From Hymenobacter jeollabukensis (GTDB lineage Bacteria; Bacteroidota; Bacteroidia; Cytophagales; Hymenobacteraceae), in NCBI RefSeq assembly GCF_005771675.1, contig NZ_VAJM01000009.1:124001-188000 (forward strand): 64,000 nt of DNA, read 5' to 3'. The translations under genes and the position numbers were made by a program. The notes under the pieces were generated by a model. It ran no database searches. It was given only the letters and a program-made list of their open reading frames with translations, and was not told the origin of the DNA. Numbering within the stretch: the stretch's first letter is position 1; every line of letters starts with the position of its first letter. Positions 3,537 through 19,446 of the stretch are shown piece after piece.

Positions 3537-5399
3537 CTAGATAATCTTCTTGCCCGCCATGGCCTGCTTGATGCTGATCTGCATCACCCGCTCGGCAAAG
3601 GGGCTGGTCAGCGCCTCCAGGTCGTCGAGGGCGCGGTAGATGGTGTCTTTGTCGCCGGAGGTGAGGGTGCCGCGCAGCACCTCGGCCTGCTGGCGCGTCT
3701 GGCTGATTTCTTCCTCGGTCAGGTGCTGGCCGTTGGTGTGCACGAAGCGGTCCACCTGGTAGAGCATCTGCTCGGCGGCGGTGCGGGCTTCGATGACCAT
3801 GCGGGCGGCCACGTCGTCCTTGGCGTGGGTCAGCGAGTCCATCAGCATCTGCTCCACTTGCTCGTCGGTGAGGCCGTACTGGGGCTTGATTTCCACGCTC
3901 TGCTTAGTGCCGGAGCGCAGCTCGATGGCCTCGACTTTCAGAATGCCGTCGGCGTTGAGGATGAAGTTGACGTCGATTTTGGGCAGGCCGGCGGGCATGG
4001 CCGGGATGCCGCGCAGGTCGAATTCGGCCAGCTTGCGGTTTTCCTTCACCAGGTCCCGCTCGCCCTGAAACACCGAAATCTTCATGTTCACCTGCCCATC
4101 CACTGAGGTGGTGTACTGGCGCCCGGCTTTGGTCGGAATCTTGGAGTTGCGCGGAATGATCGGGTCCATCAGCCCGCCCATCGTTTCGATGCCCAGGGTG
4201 AGCGGCGTCACGTCGAGCAGCAGGATGTCGCGGCGGTTGCCGGCCAGGATGTCGGCCTGAATGGCGGCGCCGAGGGCCACCACTTCGTCGGGGTTGAGCG
4301 AGGCGTTGGCCGGCTGCCCGAAGAACTCGGACACCGAATCGTACACCAGCGGCACGCGCGTGGAGCCGCCCACCAGCAGCACCGCGTCGAGCTTGTCGGC
4401 CGTAAGCTTGGCGTCGCTCAGGGCCCGGCGGCAGCTGTCGATGGTGCGCGTCACCAGCGGGCGGATCAGCTCGTCGAATTCCTGGCGGTTCAGCGTGAGG
4501 TTGTTGGCCTGGTCGAGCTGGGCGCCGAACAGGTCGTGGTCGGAGAGGTAGCGCTTGGCCTGCTCGGCCAGCAGGCGCAGGCGCTGCTTGAGCTGCGGGC
4601 TGTCGGCCACGGCCTGCTGCAGCTCGTGGCGGTGCACCCAGTGGTTGACGATGGCGCGGTCGAAGTCGTCGCCGCCGAGGTAAGTGTCGCCGTTGGTGCT
4701 CAGCACCTCGAAAATGCCTTGGTGCAAGCTCAGGATGCTGATGTCGAAGGTGCCGCCCCCGAGGTCGTATACGGCCACGGTTTTCTCCTCGTCGGGGTTC
4801 AGGCCGATGCCGTAAGCCAGCGCGGCGGCCGTGGGCTCGTTCACGATGCGCAGCACTTCCAGCCCGGCGAGGCGGCCGGCGTCGCGGGTAGCTTGGCGCT
4901 GCGAGTCGTTGAAGTAGGCCGGTACGGTAATGACAGCCTTGTTGACGGGCGTCTTGAGCGCGTGCTCGGCGCGGGCGCGCAGTTCCTTCAGAATTTCGCT
5001 CGACAGCTCGATGGGGGAGTAGAAGCGGTCCTCCACCCGGATTTTCACCAGCCCCTCGGAGTCGTCGTCGATAACCTTGTAGCCCAGGTCGCCGGCGTGC
5101 TGGCCCAGGTCGCGGTACGACTTGCCGAGCAGGCGCTTCACCGAGTAGATGGTGCGCTCGGGGGTGGTTTCGAGGTAGTCCTTGGCGTCGTTGCCCACCA
5201 GCGGGGCCGCGCCGTCCTGCGGGAAGTGCACTACCGAGGGCACGATGGTGCCGCGGCCCTGGTCGTTGATGGCAATGGGCTGCCGCGACTCGGGGTGGAT
5301 GTAGGCGACGAGGCTATTGGTGGTACCCAGGTCGATGCCGACGATGATTTCCTCCTGCTGGAGGGCGCCGGTTGACAGGTTGATGGAAACTTTGGCCAT
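3537..5399 (-). CDS. hscA: HscA-type Hsp70 chaperone
   Basis: Hsp70-family ATPase of 620 aa. The nucleotide-binding domain carries the phosphate-1 motif GIDLGTTNS (about residues 21-29), [34 protein letters not shown] and [12 protein letters not shown]. The substrate domain and a short C-terminal helical lid follow. The total length and absence of the acidic EEVD-like DnaK tail fit HscA, the chaperone that helps transfer Fe-S clusters from IscU. No hscB, iscU or fdx is next to it, so the Fe-S role rests on similarity; a second DnaK is the alternative. A -7 box (TACTTTTG on the minus strand, 5447-5454) precedes the start by about 47 nt. Confidence 0.88.
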
Positions 5400-5484: not shown

Positions 5485-5492
5485 TATCTTTG
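5485..5492 (+). promoter_or_regulatory. -7 promoter element of the L,D-transpeptidase-like gene
   Basis: TATCTTTG matches TAnnTTTG. It ends six nt before the ATG at 5499, so transcription would begin at about the start codon (leaderless mRNA, inferred). Confidence 0.6.
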
Positions 5493-5498
5493 CCGCGT

Positions 5499-6335
5499 AT
5501 GCGCAGCACAACAACCATCCTGGGCCTGGGGTTATGCCTGCTCGGCGCCTTGGGCGTGCTGCCCGCCTGCCAATCCTCCGATGCCGGGCAACCGGCCGGG
5601 CCCCCGAGCACCCGGATCAGCGCCCGGCCGCCCCTGGCTACTACGCAGCCGGCCCCCGCAAAGCTATTGCCGGGCTTGCCCGATTCTTTGCAGCCCGCCG
5701 TCCTGGCGCCGCTGCCCGGCCTGCCCGATTCGACGCGGGCGGAAGTGCAGCGCTTGCACGCTGCCCTGGGGCCGGAGGCGGCTACGCTGCGCCCGGCGGT
5801 GCTGGAGCGGGCCTACGCCGGCTACCAGCGCCTGCGCCGCGCCCGGCAGCTGCGCGGCCCCCGCGTGCTGGCCGTGGCCGACATGGAGCTGCCGTCCTCG
5901 GAGCCGCGCCTCTGGGTTATCGATGTGCGCAACAGCCGCCTGCTGCACCATAGCCACGTGACGCATGGGCGCGGCTCGGGCGGCCTGCGCGCCCGCCGCT
6001 TTTCCGACCGGCTGAAGTCGGCCTGCACGGCGCTGGGCTTTTACCGCACCGGCGACACCTACCGCGGAAAGCACGGCCTCTCGCGCCGCCTGCACGGCCT
6101 CGACCGGGGCCAGAACGGCCACGCCAGCAGCCGCTACGTGGTGCTGCACGCCGCCGATTACGCCAGCGCCGACTACCTGGCCCGCAACGGGCAGCTGGGC
6201 AACAGCCGGGGCTGCCCGGCCCTGCCGCCCGCGCAGTATCGGGCCATCATCAACAGCCTGGACGAGGGCAGCTGCCTGTTCATCTACGGGCCCGATGCGG
6301 CTTACGCCTCCGCGTGGCTGCCGGCAATGCCCTGA
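5499..6335 (+). CDS. Murein L,D-transpeptidase catalytic domain (YkuD_2) lipoprotein
   Basis: The 278-aa protein starts with a lipoprotein signal (hydrophobic GLGLCLLGALGV, lipobox LPAC, Cys24), followed by a Pro/Ala-rich linker to about residue 65. The C-terminal half holds the YkuD_2 domain: WVIDVRNSRLLHHS, a GFYRTG stretch, VVLHAADYAS and the active-site signature NSRGCPALP (Cys239). YkuD-type enzymes form or trim L,D-cross-links in peptidoglycan; activity of the YkuD_2 branch is largely inferred. The ATG at 5499 is preferred over an upstream TTG because a promoter -7 box ends at 5492. A paralogue sits at 17130-17978. Divergent from hscA. Confidence 0.88.
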   Translation: MRSTTTILGLGLCLLGALGVLPACQSSDAGQPAGPPSTRISARPPLATTQPAPAKLLPGLPDSLQPAVLAPLPGLPDSTRAEVQRLHAALGPEAATLRPAVLERAYAGYQRLRRARQLRGPRVLAVADMELPSSEPRLWVIDVRNSRLLHHSHVTHGRGSGGLRARRFSDRLKSACTALGFYRTGDTYRGKHGLSRRLHGLDRGQNGHASSRYVVLHAADYASADYLARNGQLGNSRGCPALPPAQYRAIINSLDEGSCLFIYGPDAAYASAWLPAMP

Positions 6336-6724: not shown

Positions 6725-8836
6725 ATGAAGAACGGTTTCCGCCCGTTATTCTTCCTGGGCTTGTCGGCAGCCGCGACGCTTGGCGTCGTGGCCTACAGCG
6801 GGCAGCAAGCCCCGCTGGAAGCCTCAAGCCACCGCGAAGCCCCGTTGATTGCCGACGACCCGCTGGCCGACAACACCGACCTCTACGCCTTCCGCTCGCC
6901 GGACGACGACTCGAAGATTACCATCATTGCCAACTACATTCCGCTGGAGCTGCCCCAGGGCGGGCCGAACTACAACACGTTCGGCGAAAACGTGCGGTAC
7001 GAAATCCACATCAAGAACAAGTCGACCAGCACGGGCGACGACATCACCTACCGCTTCACGTTCACGCGCGTCAATCAGGACCCGACCACGTTCTTCAACA
7101 TCCGGTTGGGGCAGCAGAACCTGAAGACCACCTACACGATGGAGCAGAGCCTCGGGGGTGGGGCCTTCACCACGCTGATTTCCAACGGCGTAGTGCCGCC
7201 GCCCAACGTGGGCCCGCGCTCCATCACGGCCGCCGCCGGTCTGAATACGACCTACAATACCCTCATGACCGGCGCCATCCAGACGTTGAGTAACGGCGGT
7301 AAGGTGTTCTGCGGCCCCGTCGACGACCCGTTCTTCGCCGATCTGGGCGGCATCTTTGATTTGGGCGGCATCCGCGCCCCCGGCCAGGCCCGCGACGGGT
7401 TGGCCCGGAAAAACACCCACGCCATTGCCCTGCAAATCCCGATTGCAGCCCTGCAGAAGGATGGCAAAACGGCCGCGCAGGCCGCTAACATCCTCGATCC
7501 GGACTTCGTTATCGGCGTGTGGGCCTCGGCCAGCCGCCCGGCCCTGCGCACCCTGAACGCCGACGGCACGCAGACGCACACCGGCTCGTACGTGCAGGTG
7601 TCGCGCATCGGCATGCCGCTGCTGAACGAGGTGGTGAACCCCATCGGTGCCAAAGACGCCTGGAACGCCAAGACGCCCTACGCCGAAGCCACCGTCACCG
7701 ACGACTACCTCTCCAACCCGGAGTTGGGCTTGTACATGGCTGAGGGCACTGCCAACGGCCAGACCTACTACGGCAGCTCGGTGCTCGGCTTAGCCGCATT
7801 GCGCATTCAGTCGGCTTCGCTAGCCGGTAGCCCTGGCCTGCCCGCCGCCGGCTTCGACTTCCGCAACGGCGCCGCCGGCCTCTCAGGTCTGGCCGGCAAC
7901 TCGGCCCTGGCTGGTACGGCGTTGGCAGCCAATGCCTACGGCCCCTACCTGCTGCGCGCCGGAAAGCCCCGCTCGGTGGATATTCTGCCCATCTTCCACA
8001 CCGGCGTGCCGAACGCCATTCCGTACCAGCTGGCTACCGGCAAAACGCCCCGCAACCCGCTCACGGCCGGCAAGCCTTTCATCAACAACTTCCTGCTGGC
8101 CAACGCCACGGCGGCTAACCCCGGCGGCGACATGCTGCGCTTGAACATGGCCGTGCCCGTAACGCCGCGCAACTCGGCTGACTTCAGCTCGGAGGGTCTG
8201 CTGCAGGCCGCCGTGCTCGGTCTGACGGACGCGCGCTATAACGCCAACGCCACGCTGCAAGCCATTCCGAACATGGACGGCTTCCCGAACGGCCGCCGCC
8301 TGGAAGACGACGTGACCCGCATCGAGCTGCAAGCCGTGGGTGGGGCCGTACTGGCCGCCATCGGCCTGTTCTACGACGACTACACCGCTACGTCGACCAA
8401 CCCGCTGACGCCGCGCCTGCTGGGCGTAGTCGGCTTCAACGCCGGCATCACGGCCAACGACACCACGCTGAAAGCGGCCTTCCCCTACGTACAGACGCCC
8501 TGGAGCGGCACCAAGGCCCAGCAGACGGCCCTCTCGCAGCGCAGCAGCAACCTGAACATGCAGCCCCAGTTGATGTCGGCGCAGGTGTACCCGAATCCCT
8601 TCGGCGCCAGCACCACCATCCGCTACGAAACGGCCGTGAAAATGCCCGTAACCATCGTTATCATGGACCTGATGGGCCGCGTGGTGGCCACGCCCATGCG
8701 CAACAAGACGGAAGCCCCCGGCGTGCATGAGTTCCGCTGGGATGCCGGCCGTCTGGCCGCAGGCGAATACATTGCCACCATCCGCACCGGCAATACCACG
8801 CTGCAGTCGGTACACATTCTGCACCGCGGCGAATAG
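6725..8836 (+). CDS. DUF4331 protein with type IX secretion sorting tail
   Basis: The 703-aa protein begins with a signal peptide (MKNGFRPLFFLGLSAAATLG). The DUF4331 signature follows directly: SSHREAPLIADDPLADNTD, then LYAFRSPDD. The family is exported and uncharacterised. The last ~80 residues form a Por/T9SS type A sorting domain (VYPNPFGASTTIRYE ... IVIMDLMGRVV ... GVHEFRWDAGRLAAGEYIATI), so the protein should cross the outer membrane and be attached or released at the surface. It heads a co-directional set with a TPR protein, a HupE/UreJ protein, a small protein and a TonB receptor. The ATG at 6725 is chosen because the signal peptide starts there. Confidence 0.9.
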   Translation: MKNGFRPLFFLGLSAAATLGVVAYSGQQAPLEASSHREAPLIADDPLADNTDLYAFRSPDDDSKITIIANYIPLELPQGGPNYNTFGENVRYEIHIKNKSTSTGDDITYRFTFTRVNQDPTTFFNIRLGQQNLKTTYTMEQSLGGGAFTTLISNGVVPPPNVGPRSITAAAGLNTTYNTLMTGAIQTLSNGGKVFCGPVDDPFFADLGGIFDLGGIRAPGQARDGLARKNTHAIALQIPIAALQKDGKTAAQAANILDPDFVIGVWASASRPALRTLNADGTQTHTGSYVQVSRIGMPLLNEVVNPIGAKDAWNAKTPYAEATVTDDYLSNPELGLYMAEGTANGQTYYGSSVLGLAALRIQSASLAGSPGLPAAGFDFRNGAAGLSGLAGNSALAGTALAANAYGPYLLRAGKPRSVDILPIFHTGVPNAIPYQLATGKTPRNPLTAGKPFINNFLLANATAANPGGDMLRLNMAVPVTPRNSADFSSEGLLQAAVLGLTDARYNANATLQAIPNMDGFPNGRRLEDDVTRIELQAVGGAVLAAIGLFYDDYTATSTNPLTPRLLGVVGFNAGITANDTTLKAAFPYVQTPWSGTKAQQTALSQRSSNLNMQPQLMSAQVYPNPFGASTTIRYETAVKMPVTIVIMDLMGRVVATPMRNKTEAPGVHEFRWDAGRLAAGEYIATIRTGNTTLQSVHILHRGE

Positions 8837-8851
8837 CCTAAGGTGAACTAC

Positions 8852-8878
8852 GGTGGGGCGGCCCGGCGCCGCCCCACC
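8852..8878. other. GC hairpin between DUF4331 and TPR genes
   Basis: GGTGGGGCGGC pairs perfectly with GCCGCCCCACC around a 5-nt loop. No T run follows, so it may stabilise or pause mRNA rather than terminate fully. A second hairpin (CGTCGTCAG/CTGACGACG) follows at about 8897-8920. Confidence 0.5.
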
Positions 8879-8979
8879 CGCGGCGGCCCCCGGCTGCGTC
8901 GTCAGTTGCCGCTGACGACGCGGCCGAGGGCACCAGCCGTAGCTGAATTGCCCCTCTCAACTCCCCGTTTCCCTCTTCT

Positions 8980-10317
8980 ATGTCTCTACCTCGACGCATA
9001 CTATACGCCTTGCTGCTGGTGGGTTTCGCCGTATCGGTGGCGGCGGTATTGCTGGCCCGTAAGGAGGCGCCCGTGCCGCAGCTCAAGGAGCGCCGCGGCG
9101 CCCTGGCCGTGGGCGGCGAGTGGCTGAACACCAAGCAGGCCGTAGCGGGCCTGCAGGAGAAGCTGCGCCGCAACCCCGATGATTACGAAGCGCGCCTGCA
9201 GCTGGCCCAGGCCTACGTGCAGGAAAGCCGCGTGACCGGCGACCATACCTACTACGACGCCGCCGCGCTCAAGCTGGTGGACGAGGTGCTGCTCAAGCGC
9301 CCCGACGATTTTGAGGCGCTGTGCACCAAGGCTGTCATTAGCCTCTCGCAGCACCACTTCGGGCAGGGGCTGACGCTGGCCGAGCGCGCCGCCGAGCTGA
9401 ATCCCTACAACGGCTTCGTGCAGGGCCTGCTCTGCGACGCGCACGTGGAGCTGGGGCATTACCCCGAAGCCATCAAGGCCGCCGACCGCATGAACGAGCT
9501 GCGCCCCGACCTGCGCGCCTACTCCCGCGTGTCGTACCTGCGCGAAATTCACGGCGACGTGAATGGCGCCAAAGAAGCCATGGACCTGGCCGTGCGCGCC
9601 GGCGTGACCGGGCTGGAACAAACCGAGTGGTGCCGGGTGATGCTCGGCCGCCTCTACGAAAACTCCGGGCAGCTGGCCCCGGCCGAAGCCGCTTACCGGC
9701 AGGCCCTGCAGACGCGCCCCGGCTACGCCTACGCCCAGGCCGGGCTGGCCCGCGTGGCCCGCACCCGCGGCGACTACCACACCGCCATCCGGCTGCTCAA
9801 GCAGGCCCGTGCCCAGGTGCGCGACTTCGCCTTCGACGACGAGCTGACCGACCTGTACCGCCTCAACAACCAGCCCACGCAGGCGGATGCTTCGGCGCAG
9901 AACGTCATCAAGCAGCTGCAGGCCCACGCCAACACCAACGACCAGGAAGACGGCCAGGGCCACTACACCGACCGGGAGCTGGCCTACGCCTACCTGAAAG
10001 CCGGCGACCTGGACCAGGCCCTTAAGCACGCCCAAACCGAGTACGAGCGGCGCCCGGCCAACATCGACGTGTGCGAAACCATGGCCTGGGTGCACTACAA
10101 GCGCAACGAGTACGCCGAAGCCCGCAAGTACATGACGCAGGCCCTGCGCACCAACTGCCGCAACCCCCAGCTGCTCTATCGCGCCGGCTGCATTGCCCTG
10201 CGCAACGGCGAAGTGGCCCAGGGCGAATCGTGGCTGCGGCAGGCCCGCGAGCAGAACCCCAATTTCAAGCCCGACCCGACCGACCCCACGCCGGCCCTGC
10301 TGGTGGCCCGCCGCTAG
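8980..10317 (+). CDS. Membrane-anchored tetratricopeptide repeat protein
   Basis: The 445-aa protein has one N-terminal membrane segment (about residues 7-25, LYALLLVGFAVSVAAVLLA), followed by an all-helical region of TPR motifs. Readable units include DYEARLQLAQAYVQES, YAYAQAGLARVARTRGDYHTAIRLLKQA and NIDVCETMAWVHYKRNEYAEARKYM. It is probably anchored in the inner membrane with the repeats in the periplasm, serving as a protein-binding scaffold. It lies between DUF4331 (143 nt upstream) and the HupE/UreJ gene (24 nt downstream), which suggests a shared operon. No enzymatic domain is visible. Confidence 0.85.
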   Translation: MSLPRRILYALLLVGFAVSVAAVLLARKEAPVPQLKERRGALAVGGEWLNTKQAVAGLQEKLRRNPDDYEARLQLAQAYVQESRVTGDHTYYDAAALKLVDEVLLKRPDDFEALCTKAVISLSQHHFGQGLTLAERAAELNPYNGFVQGLLCDAHVELGHYPEAIKAADRMNELRPDLRAYSRVSYLREIHGDVNGAKEAMDLAVRAGVTGLEQTEWCRVMLGRLYENSGQLAPAEAAYRQALQTRPGYAYAQAGLARVARTRGDYHTAIRLLKQARAQVRDFAFDDELTDLYRLNNQPTQADASAQNVIKQLQAHANTNDQEDGQGHYTDRELAYAYLKAGDLDQALKHAQTEYERRPANIDVCETMAWVHYKRNEYAEARKYMTQALRTNCRNPQLLYRAGCIALRNGEVAQGESWLRQAREQNPNFKPDPTDPTPALLVARR

Positions 10318-10341
10318 TCGGCTTCGCTTTTCCAGGCTGCG

Positions 10342-11031
10342 ATGAAACCGCTTTTTCCGCCCCGCGCCGGTGCGCTGCTGGTGCTGCTGCTCTTACCGCT
10401 GTGGGCCGGGGCGCACCCGTTCAGCAACGTCGACATCAGCAGCCTCTCGCGGCCCCAGGCCGTGTGGGGCTACCTGCAGCTGGGCTTTCAGCATATCATT
10501 CCCCTCTCGGCCGACATGACCTGGGGGCTCGACCACATCCTGTTCATCGTGAGCCTGTTCGTGCTCGAGCCGCGCCTGAAGCCGGTGCTGCTGCAGGCCA
10601 CGGCCTTCACGGTGGCCCACAGCATCACACTGGGTCTGGCCGCCGCCGGGCTGATTTCGGTGGCCCCGAGCGTGGTGGAGCCGCTCATTGCGCTGTCCAT
10701 CCTCTTCGTGGCCCTCGAAAACCTGATTACCGACCGACTGCGGCCCTGGCGGCTGGCGGTGGTGTTCGGCTTCGGACTGCTGCACGGGCTGGGCTTTGCC
10801 GGCATTCTGCGCGACATCGGCCTACCCCGCCACCTCTTCTACGAAGCCCTCGTGAGCTTCAACGTGGGTGTGGAGCTGGGCCAGGTCAGCATCATCCTGC
10901 TCTGCTGGCTGATTATCGGCTGGTGGACGGCCCCGAAACCCTGGTACAAGCAGCGCGTGCTCATGCCCATGTCGGTATGCATTGCGCTGGTAGCCGCCTG
11001 GTGGACGGTCGAGCGGGTGTTCTTTGTCTGA
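10342..11031 (+). CDS. HupE/UreJ-family membrane protein
   Basis: The 229-aa protein has an N-terminal signal-like segment ending WAGAHPF, then about six or seven hydrophobic helices. Conserved polar and His positions lie inside the membrane region: LQLGFQHII, DMTWGLDHILFIVSLF, FTVAHSITLGLA and FGLLHGLGFAGIL. HupE/UreJ proteins are thought to be metal permeases (nickel/cobalt) when linked to hydrogenase or urease. This branch (HupE_UreJ_2) is not linked to either, and its ligand is unknown. It is 24 nt behind the TPR gene. Position within a TonB-receptor cassette supports an uptake role (inference). Confidence 0.87.
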   Translation: MKPLFPPRAGALLVLLLLPLWAGAHPFSNVDISSLSRPQAVWGYLQLGFQHIIPLSADMTWGLDHILFIVSLFVLEPRLKPVLLQATAFTVAHSITLGLAAAGLISVAPSVVEPLIALSILFVALENLITDRLRPWRLAVVFGFGLLHGLGFAGILRDIGLPRHLFYEALVSFNVGVELGQVSIILLCWLIIGWWTAPKPWYKQRVLMPMSVCIALVAAWWTVERVFFV

Positions 11032-11139
11032 CACCGCGCGGGCCTGGTTCGATTGTTCCAGAGCCTCGTCTGCTTGATTTCCTGCGCCGGTTTTCCGGCC
11101 GCTTCTGCACCCCTGAATGGCTGCTGGCACCAGCGCAAC

Positions 11140-11175
11140 CAGCCATTTAGCCATTCAACAATTTAACAGTTCAAC
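11140..11175. repeat. Degenerate 8-nt tandem tract
   Basis: Reads as successive 8-nt variants: CATTTAGC, CATTCAAC, AATTTAAC, AGTTCAAC. It lies just before the ATG at 11182. Comparable octamer tracts occur at 20397-20510 and 58266-58353. Confidence 0.55.
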
Positions 11176-11181
11176 GACCTC

Positions 11182-11577
11182 ATGCGTCAGGCCTTCATCG
11201 TGCTGCTGCTGTGCAACTACCTGCTGGTAGTGGCTTGCGGCTGCGTGGGCCGGCGCACCGACGACTGGGAGCGGTACCGGCCCAAGCGGGCCTACGTGCA
11301 CAGCTCCACCTGCCAGCGCGACAACGCGCTGCGCCTCGACTGCTTCGACCGCTGCAACGGCGACCAGCACCGCTGGACGCCCCGGCAGCCCGGCGAAGAT
11401 ATCTGGCACCACATTGCGGCTCAAGTGAACGGCACGGACGTGCACTTGCTGGCGGAAACAGCACTGCTGCCGCCGCGCCCCGCCCTGCGCCAGCCCCGGC
11501 CCGCCTTCCCGAGGTGGACGCCCGCGCTGGCCCTGGGTTTGTTGGCTGAGCCCGACGCCCCGCCCCGACGCGCCTAA
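11182..11577 (+). CDS. Small exported Cys/His-containing protein of the HupE-TonB cassette
   Basis: The 131-aa protein has a hydrophobic N-terminus (QAFIVLLLCNYLLVVACGC) with a lipobox-like VVAC, so it may be a lipoprotein. The middle part holds paired cysteines (STCQRDN, LDCFDRCNGDQ) and a WHH motif; the C-terminus is Pro/Arg-rich. I do not recognise a family. Its place between HupE/UreJ and the TonB receptor, on the same strand, suggests a ligand-handling accessory. Codon use looks like its neighbours. Probably a real gene because the frame, start and signal peptide agree. Confidence 0.65.
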   Translation: MRQAFIVLLLCNYLLVVACGCVGRRTDDWERYRPKRAYVHSSTCQRDNALRLDCFDRCNGDQHRWTPRQPGEDIWHHIAAQVNGTDVHLLAETALLPPRPALRQPRPAFPRWTPALALGLLAEPDAPPRRA

Positions 11578-11745
11578 GACCACCTGACCACCGCTCGGCC
11601 GACGTGCCCGCCGTGGTCGGTTTCCGGCCTGAGCCCGCCGCGCATCTGTCGCGTCGACTTGGGCACCCGTCTTATTCTCGTCATCCGACGTCCTGCCGGC
11701 CGCCGCGCTTTCCGCGGGCCGGTTTGGCGTCACCGCTTTGCCGCT

Positions 11746-14058
11746 ATGCCCTTACTGCTACGCTCCGGCCGCTTGGCCCGGCAGCTAAGCCTGCTGTTGT
11801 CTTTCCTATCGGTTTTCCTGGTCTCGGCCACTACGGCGACGGCCCAATTGGTAGCTGCTCTGCGCGGCTCGGTGCTCGATTCGGCCTCGCACCGCCCGCT
11901 GCCGGGCGTGACGGTGCGCCTCGACGGCCGCCCTACCGACGGCGCCACCACCGACGCCCTGGGCCGCTTCCGCCTGGGCGGCCTGCCCGCCGGCACCTAC
12001 CAGGTGCACGTATCGGCGCTGGGCTACCGCAGTCAGCACACTGCGCTGACCGTGGGCAGTGCCGCGCCCGAGCCGCTGACGGTGGCCCTGGTGCCCACCG
12101 CCCTGCAGCTGGCCGAAGTAACCGTGGCCCAGCCCCGCGACCTGAACCAGAGCGTGGCGGCCATCAGCGGCATCGACCGGCAGCTGCGGCCCGTCAATTC
12201 GGCCCAGGACCTGCTGCGGCTGGTGCCGGGCCTCTTCATTGCCCAGCACGCGGGTGGGGGCAAGGCCGAGCAGATTTACCTGCGCGGCTTCGACTGTGAC
12301 CACGGCACCGACTTCAACGTGAGTATCGACGGGATGCCGGTGAACATGGTGTCGCACGCACACGGGCAGGGCTACGCTGATTTTCACTTCGTGATTCCCG
12401 AAGTAGTAGAGCAGCTGCGCGTATACAAGGGCCCGTACTCGGCCCGTTTCGGCGATTTTGCCACGGCCGGCGCGGGCGAATTCACCACCAAGACCAGCTT
12501 GGAGCAAAGCCAGGTGAAGCTGGAAGTCGGCCGCTTCGACACGCGCCGGGCGGTGCTGCTGCTGGATTTGCTGGGCAAAAACGGCCACCTGTTCAGCCAG
12601 CGCGGGCGCGAAAGCGCCTACCTGGCCGCCGAGTACAATTTCACCAACGCCTACTTCGAGCAGAAGCAGCACTTCAACCGTTTCAACGGTCTGCTGAAGT
12701 ACACCGGGCAGCTCTCGGAGCGCACCACGCTGGCGGTGAGCGGCTGGCACTTCAGCTCCCGCTGGGACGCTTCGGGCCAGGTGCCGGAGCGCGCCATCCG
12801 GGAGGGCCTGATTACCCGTTTCGGCTCCATCGACCCCACCGAGGGCGGCAACACGGCCCGCACCAACGCCAACGTGCAGCTCACGGTGGATTTGCCCCAC
12901 GACGCGGTGCTCACCCAGCAGGCGTACTACTCGCGCTACGGCTTCAACCTGTACTCCAACTTCACCTTCTTCCGCGACAACCCCGTGAACGGGGACCAGA
13001 TCCGGCAGAACGAAGCCCGCCACCTCGCCGGCTACCGCGGCACCTACGAGCGGGGCTTTGCCGTGGGCAGTCGTACCCTGCGCACCACGCTCGGCGTCGG
13101 CACCCGCTTCGACGACGTGGACCTGGCCCTGCGCCACGCCGTGCGCCGCGCCGTCACCGATACGCTGGTCAGCGGCCGGGTGCAGGAGCAGAGCTACTTC
13201 ACCTGGCTCGACGCCACGCTGCCGTTGTCGGACCGCCTCACGCTGAATGCCGCCGCCCGCCTCGACTACTTCCGGTTCCGCTTCCGCGAAGACCGGTTTG
13301 ATTCCCTCTCCGGCCGGGCCAGCAAGGCCCGCGTCAGCCCCAAGCTGAACCTGTACTACCAGCTCAGCCCGGCCGTGCAGCTGTTTGCCCGCTCCGGCTT
13401 CGGCTTCCACTCGAATGACGCCCGCTCGGTGGTGCTGAACCGCGCCGGCGCCCTGCCCCGCGCCATCGGCTATGAGGTTGGCTCCAACTTCAAGCCGGTG
13501 CCCGAGCTGGTGGTGAACCTGGCCGTGTGGGCCCTGCATCTGCAGGACGAGCTGATTTACGTGGGCGATGAGGCCGTGGTGGAAAGCGCCGGCCGCACCC
13601 GCCGCCTGGGCCTCGACCTGGCCGTGCGCTACCAGCTCACGCCCGCCCTCTTCGCCGACGTGGACTTCAACCTGAACCGCGGCCGCTCGGTGGACGACCC
13701 CCGGGGCCAGAACTACATTCCGCTGGCGCCCAGCCTCACCAGCATCGGCGGGCTGACGTGGAAGCGCCCCGGCGGCTTCAGCGCCAGCTTGCGCTACCGC
13801 CACGTCGACAGCCGCCCGGCCAACGAGGACAACTCGGTGCGCGCCCGCGGCTACACCATCGTCGATGCCCTGGCCAACTACACCCACCGGCGCTACCAAC
13901 TGGGCCTGACCATCGAAAACCTGCTGAACGTGGACTGGAACGAGGCCCAGTTCGACACCGAAAGCCAGCTGCGCGGCGAGGCGGCGCCCGTGTCGGAGCT
14001 GCACTTCACGCCCGGTACCCCGTTTTTCGCCAAGCTGACGGGCAGCTTCTTCTTCTAG
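11746..14058 (+). CDS. TonB-dependent outer-membrane receptor with His-rich plug motif
   Basis: The 770-aa protein runs in order: signal peptide (to about residue 34, ATTATAQ); a carboxypeptidase-regulatory-like domain (ALRGSVLDSASHRPLPGVTV ... GTYQVHVSALGYRSQ); a plug domain; then a 22-strand-type barrel ending in aromatic FFF. The plug contains YLRGFDCDHGTDF, then SIDGMPVNMVSHAHGQG and YADFHF, an unusually His/Asp-dense stretch for a receptor plug. It should import a ligand across the outer membrane with TonB energy. Association with HupE/UreJ points to a metal or metal complex (inference). The ATG at 11746 fits the signal peptide; longer starts do not. Confidence 0.92.
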   Translation: MPLLLRSGRLARQLSLLLSFLSVFLVSATTATAQLVAALRGSVLDSASHRPLPGVTVRLDGRPTDGATTDALGRFRLGGLPAGTYQVHVSALGYRSQHTALTVGSAAPEPLTVALVPTALQLAEVTVAQPRDLNQSVAAISGIDRQLRPVNSAQDLLRLVPGLFIAQHAGGGKAEQIYLRGFDCDHGTDFNVSIDGMPVNMVSHAHGQGYADFHFVIPEVVEQLRVYKGPYSARFGDFATAGAGEFTTKTSLEQSQVKLEVGRFDTRRAVLLLDLLGKNGHLFSQRGRESAYLAAEYNFTNAYFEQKQHFNRFNGLLKYTGQLSERTTLAVSGWHFSSRWDASGQVPERAIREGLITRFGSIDPTEGGNTARTNANVQLTVDLPHDAVLTQQAYYSRYGFNLYSNFTFFRDNPVNGDQIRQNEARHLAGYRGTYERGFAVGSRTLRTTLGVGTRFDDVDLALRHAVRRAVTDTLVSGRVQEQSYFTWLDATLPLSDRLTLNAAARLDYFRFRFREDRFDSLSGRASKARVSPKLNLYYQLSPAVQLFARSGFGFHSNDARSVVLNRAGALPRAIGYEVGSNFKPVPELVVNLAVWALHLQDELIYVGDEAVVESAGRTRRLGLDLAVRYQLTPALFADVDFNLNRGRSVDDPRGQNYIPLAPSLTSIGGLTWKRPGGFSASLRYRHVDSRPANEDNSVRARGYTIVDALANYTHRRYQLGLTIENLLNVDWNEAQFDTESQLRGEAAPVSELHFTPGTPFFAKLTGSFFF

Positions 14059-14062
14059 GGTG

Positions 14063-14207
14063 TGTGGACAGTAAGCAAAAAGAACGTCATGCTGAGCTTG
14101 TCGAAGCATCTCTACCGCTTCGTTGCATCGTGCGGTAGAGATGCTTCGACAAGCTCAGCATGACGACCTGGAAAGCATCAGAATACCTCTTTTAATTACT
14201 GTCCACA
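14063..14207. repeat. Nested palindromic repeat, family A variant (copy 4)
   Basis: The inner element has perfect 33-nt arms at 14085-14117 and 14133-14165 (outer ends CGTCATGCTGAGC, inner ends ATCTCTACCG). It is enclosed by a 12-nt outer inverted repeat TGTGGACAGTAA / TTACTGTCCACA (14063-14074 and 14196-14207). It lies just behind the TonB receptor stop. Confidence 0.9.
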
Positions 14208-14512: not shown

Positions 14513-16888
14513 TTACTTCACCACCAGCTTGCGCGTGAGGTGCAGCTCGGGCACGCTCACCGTGTACACGCCGGCGGGCAGCTGCTTGTTCGGCTGCAGG
14601 CGCGTGGTCGTCGAGCCGGGGTAGAGCTTGATGACTTCCTCGTGCACGCGGCGGCCGGTCAGATCATGCAGCTGCAGGGTCACCGTCTGCTCCTCGGGCG
14701 CCACCAGCGTCAGCTCGATGCGGTCGGCGGCGGTGGGGTTGGGGTACAGCTGCAGGTCCGCCGCCACAGCCAGCTTGGCATCCGTGGCGGCCGTCACGGT
14801 GCTGTTGCGGCCAGCCGTGGCGGTGTTCACGACGGTCGGGGCCGTGTAGGTTACCTTCAGGAAGGCTTTCTGCGCGGGGTTGGCGGTGCTGTTCTGGCGG
14901 GCTTTCAGGGTAATCCAGCCGTCGGCTGTGGGCGTGTAGGAGCCCGTGAGCGTGCCGGTGCCGGTAGCGCTGCTTACCTGCGTGCCGCTGGCGTTAAACA
15001 GCGCCATTACCAACGAGCGGGTGCCATCCGAGGGAAACAGGTTATAGCTCACCGTCTTGTTGGCGCCCACGTAGATGCGGCCAGCCGTGCGCCAGGCCGT
15101 TGAGGCGGCTGGCAGCTGCCCGCCCTGGCCCAGGGAGCGGCTGTCCCGGTCGCCCAGGTCGTCGGCCAGTTCCCATTCCTGGGTGGTCGTCATGGCGGCG
15201 CGCACGTAGTTGGTGCCGATGTTCACCGGGGCCCACACCGAGTAGCCGCGGCGGCCGCCGGTGGCCGTGCCGTTGCAGGGCGGCGTGTTGATGCTCACCG
15301 TCTGCGAGCCGCTCACCGTGACGGTGGCCGTGCCGTTGGCGCCGGAGTAGTCCTTGAGCACCGTGCCCGGGGCAAAGTCGCACGACACGGTGTTGTTCTG
15401 CCAGGCGGAGAAGTTGTCGTTGATGCCGATGATGGCCTTGGTGCTGCGCTCGATGACGAGGTGGTCGGCGGCCTGGTAGCGCACTTTGTAAGCGCCGTCC
15501 TTGAAGCGCAGGTTTTGGTGGCACCAGATCAGGTTTTCCAGGTCCGAGCGCGTGGGCAGGTCGGTGGTGCTGGTGGGCTTGTGCGAGAACCGCTTGCCGG
15601 TGTTGCCCACGTTGAAGAGGTCCTCGAAGAAGATTTGCGGCGAACCGTCGAGGGCCAGCGCGGCGGCGTAGGTGGCCGACAGGCGCGGGTCGAACGGGTC
15701 GATGTGCGGGGCCAGCTCCGAGCCGGTGTTCCAGCCGGTGTAGTTGCCGGTGCTGCCAGTCTGGGGCCGGAAGGTGTCGTGGTTGTTCACGAAGGGCACC
15801 GTGCGGTGCACGTACTGCCCGTTGGTGAGCACCACCCGCGTGCCCTGCTGGTAGCTGGGCAAGGAGCCCAGGTCGAAGTTGCCGCCGCCGCTGACGATGC
15901 TGTAGAGGCCGTTGCGCAGCGAAAAGTCGAAGGTGCCCGCGCGGTTCTGCACGTTGGTGCACCACTGGTCGAGCTGGCTGCCGCCGCCTACCCATTCGCC
16001 CACGGCGTACATGCCCGCGCCGCCCGAGGCCCAGCCGGCGTTGCTCTGCAGGTTGTAAAGAAAATCCTCGGTGGCGAAGTCCGGGAAGTGCTTCACCGCG
16101 TCGAGGCGCACCCCGTCGAAACCCTCCTGCTTTTTGTACCAGATCAGCCAGTTGCGGGCCTGCGTCCGCATATAATCGGCCGTTTGGGCGGGGTTGTACG
16201 TGGCATTGGAGCTGCTGCCGTATGAGCCGGAATAATAGCTCACATCGGGCCCGAAATACACCGCGTTCCAGTCGCCGGAAGTAGAATTATTGCCGGGGTT
16301 GGGATTGAAATTCTGCCAGTTTTTGGGCCAGCGGCCCGAGCGCGCAAGGTAGTTGCCCGCGTCCTCCGCCGAGGCCGGCGTGTTGTAGGAAACGTAGCGG
16401 AAGTTTTTGTACTTACTCGTGCTGTAGTCTTCCCAAGCGGCCGGGTCCTGCCCGCCCGCGCCCGACTGCGAGCCGGCCCCGTCGACGTGGTTCAGCACCA
16501 CGTCCTGCACCACTTCGATGCCGTTGGCGTGGAGCACCGCCACCATGCGCAGCAGCTCATCCTTGGTGCCCAGGCGCGTGCCCACGAAACCTTTCTGGTA
16601 TTTGTCGCCGAGGTCGTAGTGGTCGAACGGGGAATAGCCGTTGCCCTGGTTGCCGTTTTTGATGCTCGGCGGAATCCAGACCGCGTCGACGCCCATAGCC
16701 TTAAGGCGGGGCGCCAGCTCGGCCAGGTAGTTAGCCCAGCCGTTGGGGTAGTTGGAGTTCCAGTAGTCCCACCAGAAGCCCTGGAGGACGACTTTGGATT
16801 GTGCCTGTGCGGCAGGGCCCATCAGAAGGGCCACGCCGACTGCGGCCAGCGCCCCCAAGCGGGACGCGGTGCGCCAGATTTTCAGCAT
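14513..16888 (-). CDS. Secreted GH13 alpha-amylase with T9SS sorting tail
   Basis: Endo-acting alpha-1,4-glucan hydrolase, 791 aa, exported. The signal peptide ends about residue 30 (GPAAQAQ). The GH13 (beta/alpha)8 barrel follows with VQDVVLNHV (region I, about 129), GVRLDAVKHF (nucleophile Asp263), GEWV (acid/base Glu298) and FVNNHDT (Asp371). A beta C-domain, a beta-sandwich of about 150 residues (KTVSYNLFPSDGTRS ...) and a Por/T9SS tail complete it (LQLYPNPTAADRIEL ... LHDLTGRRVHEEV ... PAGVYTVSV). Catalytic residues are complete. The ATG at 16888 opens the signal peptide; an upstream extension of 33 codons is not family-like. A single gene with its own terminator. Confidence 0.95.
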   Translation of the reverse strand: MLKIWRTASRLGALAAVGVALLMGPAAQAQSKVVLQGFWWDYWNSNYPNGWANYLAELAPRLKAMGVDAVWIPPSIKNGNQGNGYSPFDHYDLGDKYQKGFVGTRLGTKDELLRMVAVLHANGIEVVQDVVLNHVDGAGSQSGAGGQDPAAWEDYSTSKYKNFRYVSYNTPASAEDAGNYLARSGRWPKNWQNFNPNPGNNSTSGDWNAVYFGPDVSYYSGSYGSSSNATYNPAQTADYMRTQARNWLIWYKKQEGFDGVRLDAVKHFPDFATEDFLYNLQSNAGWASGGAGMYAVGEWVGGGSQLDQWCTNVQNRAGTFDFSLRNGLYSIVSGGGNFDLGSLPSYQQGTRVVLTNGQYVHRTVPFVNNHDTFRPQTGSTGNYTGWNTGSELAPHIDPFDPRLSATYAAALALDGSPQIFFEDLFNVGNTGKRFSHKPTSTTDLPTRSDLENLIWCHQNLRFKDGAYKVRYQAADHLVIERSTKAIIGINDNFSAWQNNTVSCDFAPGTVLKDYSGANGTATVTVSGSQTVSINTPPCNGTATGGRRGYSVWAPVNIGTNYVRAAMTTTQEWELADDLGDRDSRSLGQGGQLPAASTAWRTAGRIYVGANKTVSYNLFPSDGTRSLVMALFNASGTQVSSATGTGTLTGSYTPTADGWITLKARQNSTANPAQKAFLKVTYTAPTVVNTATAGRNSTVTAATDAKLAVAADLQLYPNPTAADRIELTLVAPEEQTVTLQLHDLTGRRVHEEVIKLYPGSTTTRLQPNKQLPAGVYTVSVPELHLTRKLVVK

Positions 16889-17129
16889 GAGTAAAGGTTG
16901 GGAATGCGGTAAGGGAAAAGGGACAGAACCGGGATGCGTGCACGCAAACCGGGGCGGTAAGTTGCGGAATATTTTTAGGTTCCCCAATCGTTTGCGCAGG
17001 TTTTTCCGCTCCGGGGAATCATCCGCCGCCCCGGTTCGTTGAGAATATCAATTGCAGCCTATATCGGGGCCGCATCGTATAGAGCCTAAGCGGGCCGCAA
17101 GGCCCTGTAGCCCAAACGAAACCACTCCG

Positions 17130-17978
17130 ATGGAAAAGCATAATAGCGTCGTTCACCGCCTCCGCCTGAAAGTCAAAGCGCGTCGTCTGGCCCGCCGGGC
17201 GCTGCCGTTCGTGGCTTCTCTGTTTCTGGCCACGCCACTGGCCGGGCCGGTGCGCACCACGCAGGCGCACGGGCACCAGCTGCCGGTGGCGCTCAGCCGC
17301 CCGGCTGCGCCCTCGCCCGTTACGCTGCTCACCCAAGGCACCCGCCAGCTCTACGACGAGATGAACCTGCAGGCTCAGGGGCTGAGCTTCGACGTGTTCG
17401 AGAAGGCCTACACGGGCTACTTGAACCTGCGCGCCGAAGACAAGCTCGACCCCAACCGCGAGCTGCTGGCCGTGGCCGATTTCGACCTGCCTTCCACCGA
17501 AAAGCGCCTGTGGGTGCTCGATCTGGGCAAGAAGGAAGTGCTGTTCCACACGCTGGTGGCCCACGGCCACAATTCCGGCGAGAACGTGGCCACCAACTTC
17601 TCAAACCAGAACGAGTCGAACATGAGCAGTCTGGGCTTCTACGTGACCGATGCCGAGTACGTGGGCAAGCACGGCCGCTCCCTGAAGCTTGACGGCCAGG
17701 ATTTGGGCTTCAACGACAACGCCCGCGAGCGGGCCGTGGTGATGCACGGCGCCGACTACGTGAGCGAGGATTTCATCAAGCAGAACGGCCGCCTGGGCCG
17801 CAGCCTCGGCTGCCCGGCCCTGCCCATGGACCAGTACGCCCAGATTATCGATACGCTGGGCAAGGGCGCCTGCCTGTTCCTGAACGGCAACGACCCCAAC
17901 TACCAGTCGCAGTACCTCGATACCGACGAAGCGGCCCGCGTGTACGCCACGGTGGCCAGCGGCGGCCAAACGGTGTAG
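17130..17978 (+). CDS. Murein L,D-transpeptidase catalytic domain (YkuD_2) protein
   Basis: The 282-aa protein has a basic N-terminus and one hydrophobic segment (ALPFVASLFLATPLAG), then the YkuD_2 domain. It has KRLWVLDLGKKEVLFHTLVAHG, GFYVTDAEYVGKHG, VVMHGADYVSEDF and the catalytic RSLGCPALP (Cys228). It is paralogous to 5499-6335 but lacks a lipobox, so the two are probably placed differently in the envelope. A perfect 25-bp hairpin terminator follows directly. Role in peptidoglycan L,D-cross-linking is inferred from the YkuD fold. Confidence 0.88.
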   Translation: MEKHNSVVHRLRLKVKARRLARRALPFVASLFLATPLAGPVRTTQAHGHQLPVALSRPAAPSPVTLLTQGTRQLYDEMNLQAQGLSFDVFEKAYTGYLNLRAEDKLDPNRELLAVADFDLPSTEKRLWVLDLGKKEVLFHTLVAHGHNSGENVATNFSNQNESNMSSLGFYVTDAEYVGKHGRSLKLDGQDLGFNDNARERAVVMHGADYVSEDFIKQNGRLGRSLGCPALPMDQYAQIIDTLGKGACLFLNGNDPNYQSQYLDTDEAARVYATVASGGQTV

Positions 17979-17992
17979 TAAATCAGTGCCCT

Positions 17993-18042
17993 CGAAAAAC
18001 GACGAAAGCCGGCGGATATCCGCCGGCTTTCGTCGTTTTTCG
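17993..18042. terminator. Perfect 25-bp bidirectional terminator palindrome
   Basis: The 25-nt arms are fully complementary with no loop bases: outer CGAAAAACGACG, centre GGCGGATATCCGCC. It lies between two convergent genes, and the A/T ends serve both strands. Confidence 0.88.
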
Positions 18043-18063
18043 GGTAAATCAGGGGCGGCGCAG

Positions 18064-19191
18064 CTACAGCGTCACGCCAAACTTCTGCCCGACGGTCTGC
18101 AGGTCGTCCACCACTTTCTGCAGCAGCGGAATGCCGTGGGTGAGGCGCTCCTCCGTCATGCGGCGCTCCGGGTCGCCGGGGATGAGCACCTGCTGCCCGG
18201 ACACGGCCTTAGCATGGCGGAAGGTTTCGATCCACTTGTCCATGTGGGCCTTGAACTCGGCGGCGGGGCGGAAGGCGTCCACGCGCATCACGCCGAAGAA
18301 GTGGCCTATGCCCTGGCCCACCGGGTCGGCGGGGGGCTGCAGGAAAGCCACGAACGGGGGCACCCAGGGGCCATAGTTGGCACCCGACAGCACGGCGGAG
18401 AGGATATCGACGGTGGCGCCGAGGCCGTAGCCCTTATGGCTGCCGGTTTCGCCGCCCAGCGGCACCAGCGCGCCGCCGTTGCGGGTTTCGGTGGGGTTGC
18501 TGCTGGGCTGGCCGTCTTTGTCCTGAATCCAGCCGGCGGGGGCGGGTAAGCCCTTGCGCTCCAGGATTTCCATCTTGCCCTGGGCGGCCGTGGTGGTGGC
18601 CATGTCGAGCACGAAGGGCGGCTGCTCCCCGGCCGGAATGGCGACGGAAATCGGGTTGGTGCCCAGCAGCCTTTCCAACGAATACGTGGGCGCCACCAGC
18701 GGCGAGGCATTGGTGAGGGCAATGCCAATCATGTCGTGGGGCAGGGCCAGCATGGCGTGGTAGCCGGCAATGCCGAAGTGGTTGGAGTTGCGCACGGCCA
18801 CCCAGCCCGTGCCCGCCACCCGCGCCTTTTCGATGGCCAGCCGCATGGCGTGCGGGGCCACCACCAGCCCCAGGCCGGCGTCGCCGTCGACCACGGCCGT
18901 GCTCGGCGTTTCGTGCACCACGCCGATGCGCGGGGCCGCGTTGATGCGCTGGGCTTCCCAGAGGCGCACGTAGCCGCTGAGCCGCGCCACGCCGTGCGAG
19001 TCGACGCCGCGCAAATCGGCGGACAGCAGGGTTTCGGTGGCCTGGCGGGCGTCCTCGGCGGGGCAGCCCATGGCGCGAAATACGCCCTCGGCAAAATCAA
19101 ACAGACGCTGGTACTCGAAAGTCAAGGGGGCAGCAGGTAAAGGTGGAAGGGTAGGAGGGCCGCGCCAGCCCGAACAGCCAGCGGCACTCAT
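18064..19191 (-). CDS. Malate/L-lactate (Ldh) family NAD(P)-dependent dehydrogenase
   Basis: 2-hydroxyacid oxidoreductase of the LDH2/MDG2 fold, distinct from Rossmann LDH. The family signature is clear: DLRGVDSHGVARLSGY, GTGWVAVRNSNHFGIAGYH, ALTNASPLVAPTYSLERLLGTNPIS, FVLDMATTTAAQGK and SHKGYGLGATVDILS. Substrate (malate, lactate, ureidoglycolate or a sugar acid) cannot be told. The start is uncertain: ATG at 19191 gives 375 aa with a Pro-rich, non-family N-terminus. A TTG at 19125 would give 353 aa beginning LTFEYQRLF, closer to family length. A 41-bp tandem repeat array lies directly upstream. Confidence 0.9.
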   Translation of the reverse strand: MSAAGCSGWRGPPTLPPLPAAPLTFEYQRLFDFAEGVFRAMGCPAEDARQATETLLSADLRGVDSHGVARLSGYVRLWEAQRINAAPRIGVVHETPSTAVVDGDAGLGLVVAPHAMRLAIEKARVAGTGWVAVRNSNHFGIAGYHAMLALPHDMIGIALTNASPLVAPTYSLERLLGTNPISVAIPAGEQPPFVLDMATTTAAQGKMEILERKGLPAPAGWIQDKDGQPSSNPTETRNGGALVPLGGETGSHKGYGLGATVDILSAVLSGANYGPWVPPFVAFLQPPADPVGQGIGHFFGVMRVDAFRPAAEFKAHMDKWIETFRHAKAVSGQQVLIPGDPERRMTEERLTHGIPLLQKVVDDLQTVGQKFGVTL

Positions 19192-19228
19192 GCCACAATT
19201 CGGAAAGCGCAAAAATGGTTGTCAGATG

Positions 19229-19424
19229 CCATTCCGCATTTCGGAACGGGCAAAAATGCCTGTCGGACCCCGTTCCGCATTCCGGAACGACCAAAAACGG
19301 TTGTCAGACCCCATTCCGCATTTCGGAATGACCAAGAATGGTTGTCAGACCCCATTCCGGAATGCGGAATGGCTAAAAACGCTTGTCAGACCCCGTTCCG
19401 CGTTTCGGAATGGGGTCTGACAAG
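19229..19424. repeat. Tandem array of 41-bp units ending in a long hairpin
   Basis: Four full 41-nt units begin at 19229, 19270, 19311 and 19352, with a decayed copy before and a half copy after. Each unit holds a small palindrome of the type CATTCCGCATTTCGGAATG followed by a TTGTCAGACC tail. The last half copy closes as a hairpin: CTTGTCAGACCCCGTTCCG (19382-19400) with CGGAATGGGGTCTGACAAG (19406-19424). There are no unique spacers, so this is not CRISPR. It lies between ppx and the Ldh-family gene, both on the minus strand. Confidence 0.92.
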
Positions 19425-19446
19425 CCGCCGGGGGCATTACTGACAG

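Follow-up and report, generated by a model that had tools for sequence, protein, structure and literature searches.

We analysed a 64,000-nucleotide stretch of the Hymenobacter jeollabukensis genome (contig NZ_VAJM01000009.1, positions 124,001 to 188,000; hereafter the window), and a block of five genes within it probably encodes a copper/nickel acquisition module with its own nascent-chain metal sensor. In order, the genes encode a DUF4331 protein, a tetratricopeptide repeat (TPR) protein, a HupE_UreJ_2 permease, a small exported Cys/His protein and a TonB-dependent receptor. An earlier note on this DNA had described them as co-directional genes in one block, and our check of the open reading frames (ORFs) confirmed the positions, the families and the location of all five on the + strand. 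We read the block as a transition-metal system because of its HupE or NicO partners, the predicted N-terminal His sites, the His cluster in the receptor plug and the CutF-like architecture of the small gene. Judging from the sequences, the ligand would most likely be Cu(II) and/or Ni(II). The earlier suggestion of a metal ligand is supported at this level by the X-X-His start of DUF4331, the N-terminal His of HupE and the plug cluster. The suggested combination of an outer- and an inner-membrane step is supported as well.

In the proposed mechanism, DUF4331 is exported by the type IX secretion system (T9SS) and would capture copper or nickel at the cell surface through its N-terminal X-X-His tail, both the cleavage and the binding being predicted. 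The receptor with its His-rich plug would bring in the metal, as such or in a complex, through the outer membrane, and the membrane-anchored TPR protein, which has a conserved His-x-Phe motif, may organise the transfer. HupE carries a predicted N-terminal His as well as conserved His, Asp and Glu residues in the membrane and, as expected from its family, would move the metal across the inner membrane. The small peptide would act during its translation and export. Its CxxxC/His site may sense the metal while its C-terminal Pro-Pro slows the ribosome, and this slowing would tune the expression of the receptor gene behind it.

Conservation and modularity of the gene block

Relatives were collected in two sets, which share at least one locus (L047, L077). 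Set B contains 78 distinct loci from the best 80 of at least 559 confirmed relatives in a scan of named genomes; 16 of them have less than 6.5 kb of sequence beyond the last DUF4331 gene. Set A contains 37 loci from a phylum-wide draw of Bacteroidota, where DUF4331 was found in 38 of 296 genomes, the window's genome included. The neighbourhood check showed that the five genes co-occur elsewhere, with the same order DUF4331-TPR-HupE-small gene-receptor in 50 of the 78 nearest loci (set B). Forty-one of these 50 have a small protein of the window's type and nine have an unrelated His-rich one (cluster c24).

By profile, a TPR gene was found near DUF4331 in 36 of the 37 set A loci, on the same strand in 33, and a receptor related to the window's in 18 (not 20, as the weak matches in L045 and L069, with 42 and 34 bits, were dropped). 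Since TPR is almost always there and HupE and the receptor are found less often, the conserved core is DUF4331-TPR, with HupE and the receptor as frequent partners. The block is modular and consists of DUF4331-TPR, then a HupE/NicO permease, then the small gene with the receptor. The idea of a single five-gene system held as far as the gene order goes, but the genes do not form a fixed unit; the core has variable partners. The small gene and the receptor can duplicate as a pair, as seen in a second tandem pair in L126 (the same as L178), and they occur without HupE in other genomes of the family (L174, L176 and L177). A sample of 60 genomes of the family contained the window-type small protein in 20, spread over four of six genera. 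Another candidate, L175, was not counted as a cassette because its small protein lacks a terminal Pro-Pro and is followed by a gene for a carbohydrate-binding protein.

Genes resembling extracytoplasmic function (ECF) sigma factors were seen in 15 of the 37 set A loci, and anti-sigma-like genes in 13. Such sigma and anti-sigma genes stand beside DUF4331 in two phyla (L153, with RskA_C, L166 and 13-15 of the set A loci), and the pair is probably a transcriptional regulator of the DUF4331 locus. Hymenobacter also has a second type of DUF4331 locus, to which several set B loci belong, where a copy of about 600-690 amino acids (aa) is followed by one of about 1,270-1,340 aa. No TPR, HupE or small gene was mapped in the loci of this type (L113, L124, L127, L134, L135, L145, L146 and L147).

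DUF4331 has an export tail and a predicted X-X-His start

The first gene (6725-8836, +) encodes a DUF4331 protein of 703 aa with a signal peptide and a T9SS type A C-terminal sorting tail. It matched PF14224 over the full length of the profile (positions 1-421 of 421, 422 bits, E 3.7e-126) and is the only DUF4331 match in the 6.18-Mb genome, which has three HupE_UreJ_2 matches; set against these low copy numbers, the gene order shared by the relatives exceeds chance. The nearest named relative is Hymenobacter edaphi, with 95% identity in DUF4331. The sorting domain (residues 621-693; 8585-8803, +) scored above the cut-offs of both PF18962 (29.6 bits, cut-off 27) and TIGR04183 (31.6 bits, cut-off 23). 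The sequence of this tail supports export of DUF4331 to the surface by the type IX system, as the earlier note had claimed.

Mature DUF4331 is predicted to begin with X-X-His, the ATCUN (amino-terminal copper and nickel) pattern that binds Cu(II) and Ni(II); this start is newly recognised here. In the window this predicted N-terminus is Ser-Ser-His (codons 6824-6832, +), assigned by the (-3,-1) rule for signal-peptide cleavage and by the conserved His. SSHREAP is the common start; Nostoc has SDH, Marinovum has ASH, and the set A proteins of the split-gene type show ADHxDAP or a similar sequence. Of seven offsets compared, the X-X-His one satisfied the rule best, in 108 of the 110 distinct contexts. 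The next-best offset, with His as the first residue, agreed with the rule in 94 contexts but never with Ala at -1, and proteins with the ADH or SDH start cannot follow it. Across 130 distinct contexts, 95% have Ala at -1, which is also where the conserved block sets in.

The X-X-His pattern was present in 156 of 174 ORFs with a DUF4331 profile match; the pattern expression itself demands His, so that His is at 100% in this count by construction, and the actual tests are the offset comparison, the individual inspection and an alignment of 17 proteins. The 18 ORFs without the pattern comprise three full proteins that have it further in, four fragments that lack the N-terminus, three of which lie at the edge of a contig, and 11 weak matches scoring at most 57 bits. 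Aligned across phyla, all 17 DUF4331 proteins share the N-terminal His, D49, D52, F56 and a C-terminal GRR-x2-DD motif. The AlphaFold2 model, built from 47 sequences, had a predicted template modelling score (pTM) of 0.72 and a predicted local distance difference test score (pLDDT) of 68.9. The N-terminal 11 residues of the model had a pLDDT below 50, which is compatible with a flexible tail and proves nothing. No match to DUF4331 was found among PDB chains by sequence at E up to 1.

Albumin is an ATCUN protein, and DUF4331 shares with albumin, histatin and hepcidin the X-X-His at the predicted free N-terminus. Unlike in those proteins, the pattern in DUF4331 is predicted from sequence and is conserved throughout a family of secreted bacterial proteins whose genes have permease genes as neighbours. 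According to published accounts, X-X-His chelates Cu(II) and Ni(II) (PMC12929937, PMC8277166, PMC7596191).

In 19 set A loci (L052-L070) two adjoining short genes take the place of a single DUF4331 gene. One covers the front of the profile and the next one its rear, so that two separable domains may exist in the family.

TPR and HupE partners

The TPR protein (445 aa; 8980-10317, +), recognised by the Pfam TPR families, has a hydrophobic N-terminal stretch which is a probable membrane anchor. An alignment across phyla showed its His-x-Phe motif (H125, F127) in all 13 proteins compared, and H125 is present in all 100 pooled Bacteroidota homologues.

The permease (229 aa; 10342-11031, +) matched PF13795 with 153.3 bits (cut-off 24.5, E 5.4e-45), and a sequence search found no relative in the PDB at E up to 1. 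H51, H65, H93 and H148 are present in 71 of 71 homologues, while D64, E113, E126, E178 and Q181 are at least 93% conserved. A His after the hydrophobic stretch was present in 67 of the 71 Bacteroidota rows, the other four rows being gaps, and the predicted N-terminal His was seen in nine of nine plasmid-borne HupE/NicO partners inspected (of 11). We therefore predict that the HupE/NicO partners begin with His after signal removal, at His25 in the window, a feature newly recognised here. The same HupE_UreJ_2 membrane domain and predicted mature His start are found in the HupE/UreJ-2 anglerase proteins (Ang-1, Ang-2). The window's HupE differs from them in having no anglerase domain, and only about 19 residues lie between His25 and the permease domain, which starts at residue 44. 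In the work on the anglerase proteins, the domains that begin with His and are fused to HupE/UreJ-2 bound Cu(II) in vitro with a Kd of about 74 and 62 nM, and one of them also bound Ni(II) (PMC12537917); DUF4331 is absent from the main text of that paper. The window's clade, which includes L074 and L075, has a 6-residue HupE insertion between His51 and Asp64-His65, beside the presumed metal site.

The TonB-dependent receptor

The receptor ORF had been listed from a TTG at 11659. This start is probably wrong; the ATG at 11746 gives a normal signal peptide and lies 168 nucleotides (nt) after the small gene, which places the receptor at 11746-14058 (+). The plug, the barrel and a carboxypeptidase-regulatory domain were all above cut-off (PF07715, PF00593, PF13620). 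The plug contains a cluster of His residues with one Met (12247-12387, +; numbered from TTG 11659), with the motif DCDHGTD...SHAHGQGYADFHF. Among 75 homologues, H197 was conserved in 74, H215 in 75, H233 in 71, H235 in 74, H243 in 73 and M230 in 70, and in the barrel H584 was conserved in 74 and H782 in 65. We infer that such a cluster would suit a transition metal. None of the 18 NCBIfam models listed for TonB receptors of known substrate (siderophore, heme, B12, copper) scored above its cut-off, and the PDB matches found by sequence sit around the plug and indicate no single ligand.

The distance in front of the receptor depends on its neighbour. Counted from ORF starts, a receptor directly after TPR follows at a median gap of 9.5 nt (14 set A cases, 10 of them at 30 nt or less), whereas a receptor after the small gene follows at a median of 117.5 nt (46 cases) or, for the c24 type, 163 nt (nine cases). 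The long leader behind the small gene and the short gap behind TPR agree with a leader peptide of the CutF/CruR kind.

The small gene resembles CutF and CruR in architecture

The small gene (11182-11577, +) encodes a 131-aa exported Cys/His protein, a candidate CutF/CruR-like nascent-chain metal sensor. It matched no Pfam family at E up to 0.1, and no significant paralogue was found in the same genome (next E 0.147). The pooled loci contained 47 homologues (46 distinct). All 47 have the CxxxC motif (in the window Cys54-Cys58; 11341-11355, +) and all 47 have Pro-Pro within the last six residues. Among 583 other ORFs of 70-200 aa in these loci, 12 have such a Pro-Pro, or 2 of 187 when recurring clusters only are counted. 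In the window the pair is Pro127-Pro128 (11560-11565, +), followed by three codons and the stop. The spacing from CxxxC to Pro-Pro is 65-69 in 47 of 47, and most columns of this linker are poorly conserved. The count starts one residue past the second Cys and runs to the last Pro-Pro, so that the residues following this Cys number one more. An alignment of 35 small proteins has H40, C44, C54, C58, D86 and H88 in every member. The hydrophobic N-terminus was modelled by AlphaFold2 as a helix of residues 2-22 (mean pLDDT 95 for residues 1-10 and 90 for 11-20). Only this helix is confident in a model with a pTM of 0.29, which is weak evidence given the shallow alignment.

The c24 proteins (n=9), from other Bacteroidota, occupy the same position, between HupE and the receptor. 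They have invariant H37, H44, H49, H56 and H58, Pro-Pro in nine of nine, and 61-67 residues from HxHxE to Pro-Pro. Their matches to NCBIfam were at chance level at most (best E 0.05). Distant small proteins in L174, L176 and L177 also combine CxxxC with PPP near the end and stand before a receptor; in L174 the PPP lies 7-9 residues from the end.

The published rules for CutF-like proteins describe the window's protein well: it is shorter than 150 aa, has PP at 127-128, a putative N-terminal signal peptide and CxxxC, and a TonB-dependent receptor 168 nt downstream. CutF of Rhodobacter capsulatus has CxxxC and a C-terminal PEPEGPPPRL, controls the next gene at the translational level and acts in copper detoxification; CutF-like proteins with His motifs only were found next to HupE/UreJ genes, and Bacteroidota account for 19% of CutF-like proteins, or 40% when normalised, according to the CutF work (PMC9973294, PMC8456105). 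The His-rich c24 family near HupE fits both the His-only proteins near HupE/UreJ and the Bacteroidota share. The control of a multicopper oxidase by CutF involves a stem-loop, and RNA structure there shields the ribosome-binding site downstream, whereas no such stem-loop was shown in the window.

The second likeness is to the copper-regulated CruR-BfrG operon of Bordetella pertussis, where a DUF2946 upstream ORF precedes a TonB-dependent transporter. Both systems have a small exported Cys protein with a C-terminal Pro-Pro, a TonB-dependent transporter behind it and a long leader in between, 162 bp in CruR-BfrG and 168 bp in the window (11578-11745, +). CruR has CXXC and RAPP with 45 intervening residues, whereas the window's protein has CxxxC, xPPR and a longer linker. 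CruR heads its operon, whereas the window's gene lies within a longer block behind DUF4331-TPR-HupE. In CruR, copper relieves the arrest and leads to Rho-dependent termination (PMC9426467), and a further account describes the arrest in vitro (PMC12992588).

On these comparisons the small gene probably encodes a sensor that responds to metal as a nascent chain and serves the receptor, rather than a ligand carrier. The earlier note had placed it in a system for one ligand; a regulatory leader peptide of the CutF/CruR type fits it better than a ligand-handling part. Folding of 53 leaders gave a mean z of -1.82 (30 shuffles each; the related sequences are not independent). A general stem-loop before the receptor, structured on average, was not used as evidence, and neither was the excess of C over G in 37 of the 53 leaders, which was counted without a control.

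DUF4331 outside Bacteroidota

Outside Bacteroidota we searched plasmid records, where tblastn found DUF4331 in 32, and examined 19 of them. DUF4331 with a middle gene and HupE or NicO was present in 11 of the 19, from proteobacteria, actinobacteria and one cyanobacterium. The permease is HupE in six (Pseudoalteromonas, Marinobacter, a Comamonadaceae bacterium, Variovorax and two Lichenicola plasmids) and NicO in five (three Streptomycetaceae, Nonomuraea and Nostoc). The middle gene is a TPR gene by Pfam or by our own profile in 10 of the 11; in the remaining Lichenicola record a TPR match was seen only in a 13-sequence comparison. The actinobacterial DUF4331-TPR-NicO loci examined have no receptor, and outer-membrane import is therefore an add-on to the DUF4331-TPR-permease set. 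A receptor match in L156 was rejected as a composition artefact (46% Arg/Pro/Ala).

Five Rhodobacterales loci (L155, L161, L165, L167 and L168) are of a type with type II secretion system (T2SS) genes beside DUF4331, with a prepilin-peptidase gene on the opposite side in four of them. This suggests a dedicated secretion system. Sortase genes lie beside DUF4331 in two streptomycete-type records. A search of phage records with the DUF4331 protein of L153 found none.

Which metal

The earlier note had stated that the block has no hydrogenase or urease. This is true for the block itself, and a NiFe hydrogenase match was likewise absent from the genome, but urease is encoded elsewhere. Next to urease lies a 207-aa ORF with a HAFEPDH motif, which we take, by eye, to be a NicO/UreH-like permease. 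Since urease thus seems to have its own permease, supply of nickel to urease is unlikely as the main purpose of the block. The B12-dependent MetH is present in the genome, so cobalt is a possible ligand too. On an Adhaeribacter plasmid (L152, locus 15550-19593), DUF305 and copper chaperone genes are annotated behind DUF4331-TPR, the chaperone about 8 kb from DUF4331, which is a weak hint at copper.

Alternative explanations

Several observations weigh against a metal acquisition module with a nascent-chain sensor. Metal binding and the expression response are both predicted from sequence here. For the cleavage of DUF4331 the only criterion was the (-3,-1) rule, and the cut placed in this way leaves a rather long c-region in Hymenobacter. 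The DUF4331 model is mediocre (pLDDT 68.9); Foldseek found no PDB match to it at E of 0.001 or below, which is not proof of a new fold. HupE lies nearby in only eight of the 37 set A loci, where NicO was outside the search, and the related receptor is present in only 18. Among the 19 plasmid records, three (Adhaeribacter, Miltoncostaea and one Pseudoalteromonas) have TPR but no permease in the stretch examined, and the five Rhodobacterales loci with type II secretion genes have neither. As for the sensor, no DUF2946 match was found among the 35 small proteins at E up to 1; they have CxxxC, xPPR and a linker of more than 60 residues but no RAPP motif. The window-type and c24 small families have no detectable homology (hhalign probability 2.3%), and the window's leader RNA is no more structured than its shuffles (z 0.03). 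As for uptake, the inward direction of HupE transport is only presumed, and NicO families include exporters.

This last point leads to detoxification or sequestration, where DUF4331 would bind excess copper or nickel outside the cell, HupE/NicO would export the metal and the small peptide would sense the excess. NicO replaces HupE in Streptomycetaceae, Nonomuraea and Nostoc, CutF itself has a role in copper detoxification, and genes for resistance-nodulation-division (RND) efflux, annotated in general terms only, stand beside DUF4331 in Pseudoalteromonas L153 and Sulfitobacter L155. However, TonB receptors work as importers, and in the published system that comes closest, with a peptide before a TonB-dependent transporter, CruR controls presumed copper acquisition; we regard detoxification as quite improbable. 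We give about the same small weight to an organic ligand handled by DUF4331 and the receptor, with the His residues being structural. DUF4331 has many other invariant residues, Asp, Asn and Arg among them, and HupE is the only one of the window's five genes in a family named for metals. Against this, the HupE/NicO partners across phyla, the predicted N-terminal His sites, the plug cluster and the CutF-like architecture indicate a transition metal.

Two other explanations keep the metal and change the parts, and both are unlikely. The block could be two independent syntenic systems, namely a DUF4331-TPR-HupE/NicO unit and a separately regulated unit of small gene and receptor. The second tandem pair in L126, the pairs without HupE, the actinobacterial loci without a receptor and the long gaps on both sides of the small gene would all fit such a division, but the receptor is tightly coupled to TPR where the two are adjacent in set A, and about half of the set A loci have a related receptor with DUF4331. 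Alternatively, the small protein could serve as a periplasmic chaperone and deliver metal to HupE or the receptor. Its invariant H40, C44, C54, C58 and H88 could form a metal site, and CutF was at first considered a copper chaperone or a CutO maturation factor. A chaperone would, however, leave unexplained the near-constant length of a diverged linker and the Pro-Pro that all 47 homologues have beside the stop codon, and a family without detectable homology but with the same architecture takes the same place in nine loci. The lack of a confident fold past the N-terminal helix also argues against a chaperone, weakly in view of the shallow alignment.

A wider proposal can be made, which we put forward tentatively and hold to be possible rather than probable. 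DUF4331 would be the founding family of ATCUN-tailed secreted metal scavengers, a bacterial counterpart of the N-terminal copper/nickel site of albumin. Its export would be lineage-specific (T9SS in Bacteroidota, probably T2SS in Rhodobacterales and perhaps sortase in streptomycetes), it would have a dedicated TPR partner and HupE/NicO in at least four phyla, and a TonB receptor with its own nascent-chain sensor would have been added in Bacteroidota. The widespread DUF4331 family, which has no assigned function, would thereby gain a testable role in surface capture of copper or nickel, and HupE/NicO permeases away from urease and hydrogenase would gain a partner. Metal-responsive leader peptides, which have been studied in detail in proteobacteria but for Bacteroidota are no more than predictions in the CutF paper, would gain two concrete Bacteroidota families directly before receptors. 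Neither DUF4331 nor PF14224 occurs in any paper of a 5.39-million-paper library (main texts, not supplements), and the titles and abstract beginnings of the literature matches listed for HupE with TonB, TPR or Bacteroid terms contained no description of the cassette.

Features around the block

Just 3' of the receptor stop codon lies a perfect 24-bp inverted repeat with arms at 14085-14108 and 14142-14165. From its appearance it may be a terminator hairpin or a repeated extragenic palindrome, and no further arms were found in the window at up to three mismatches. Upstream, on the opposite strand, lies an Hsp70 gene (3537-5399, -) that many Hymenobacter loci keep next to the cassette (cluster c4, 45 loci). 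Paralogous L,D-transpeptidase genes (YkuD_2) stand one on each side of the region (5490-6335 and 17052-17978), and YkuD_2-like genes recur close to the cassette in relatives (cluster c6, 37 loci). The convergent alpha-amylase gene (14513-16987, -) ends in a C-terminal stretch resembling a T9SS tail (24.8 bits, cut-off 27), and its synteny is kept in relatives (cluster c11, 28 loci).

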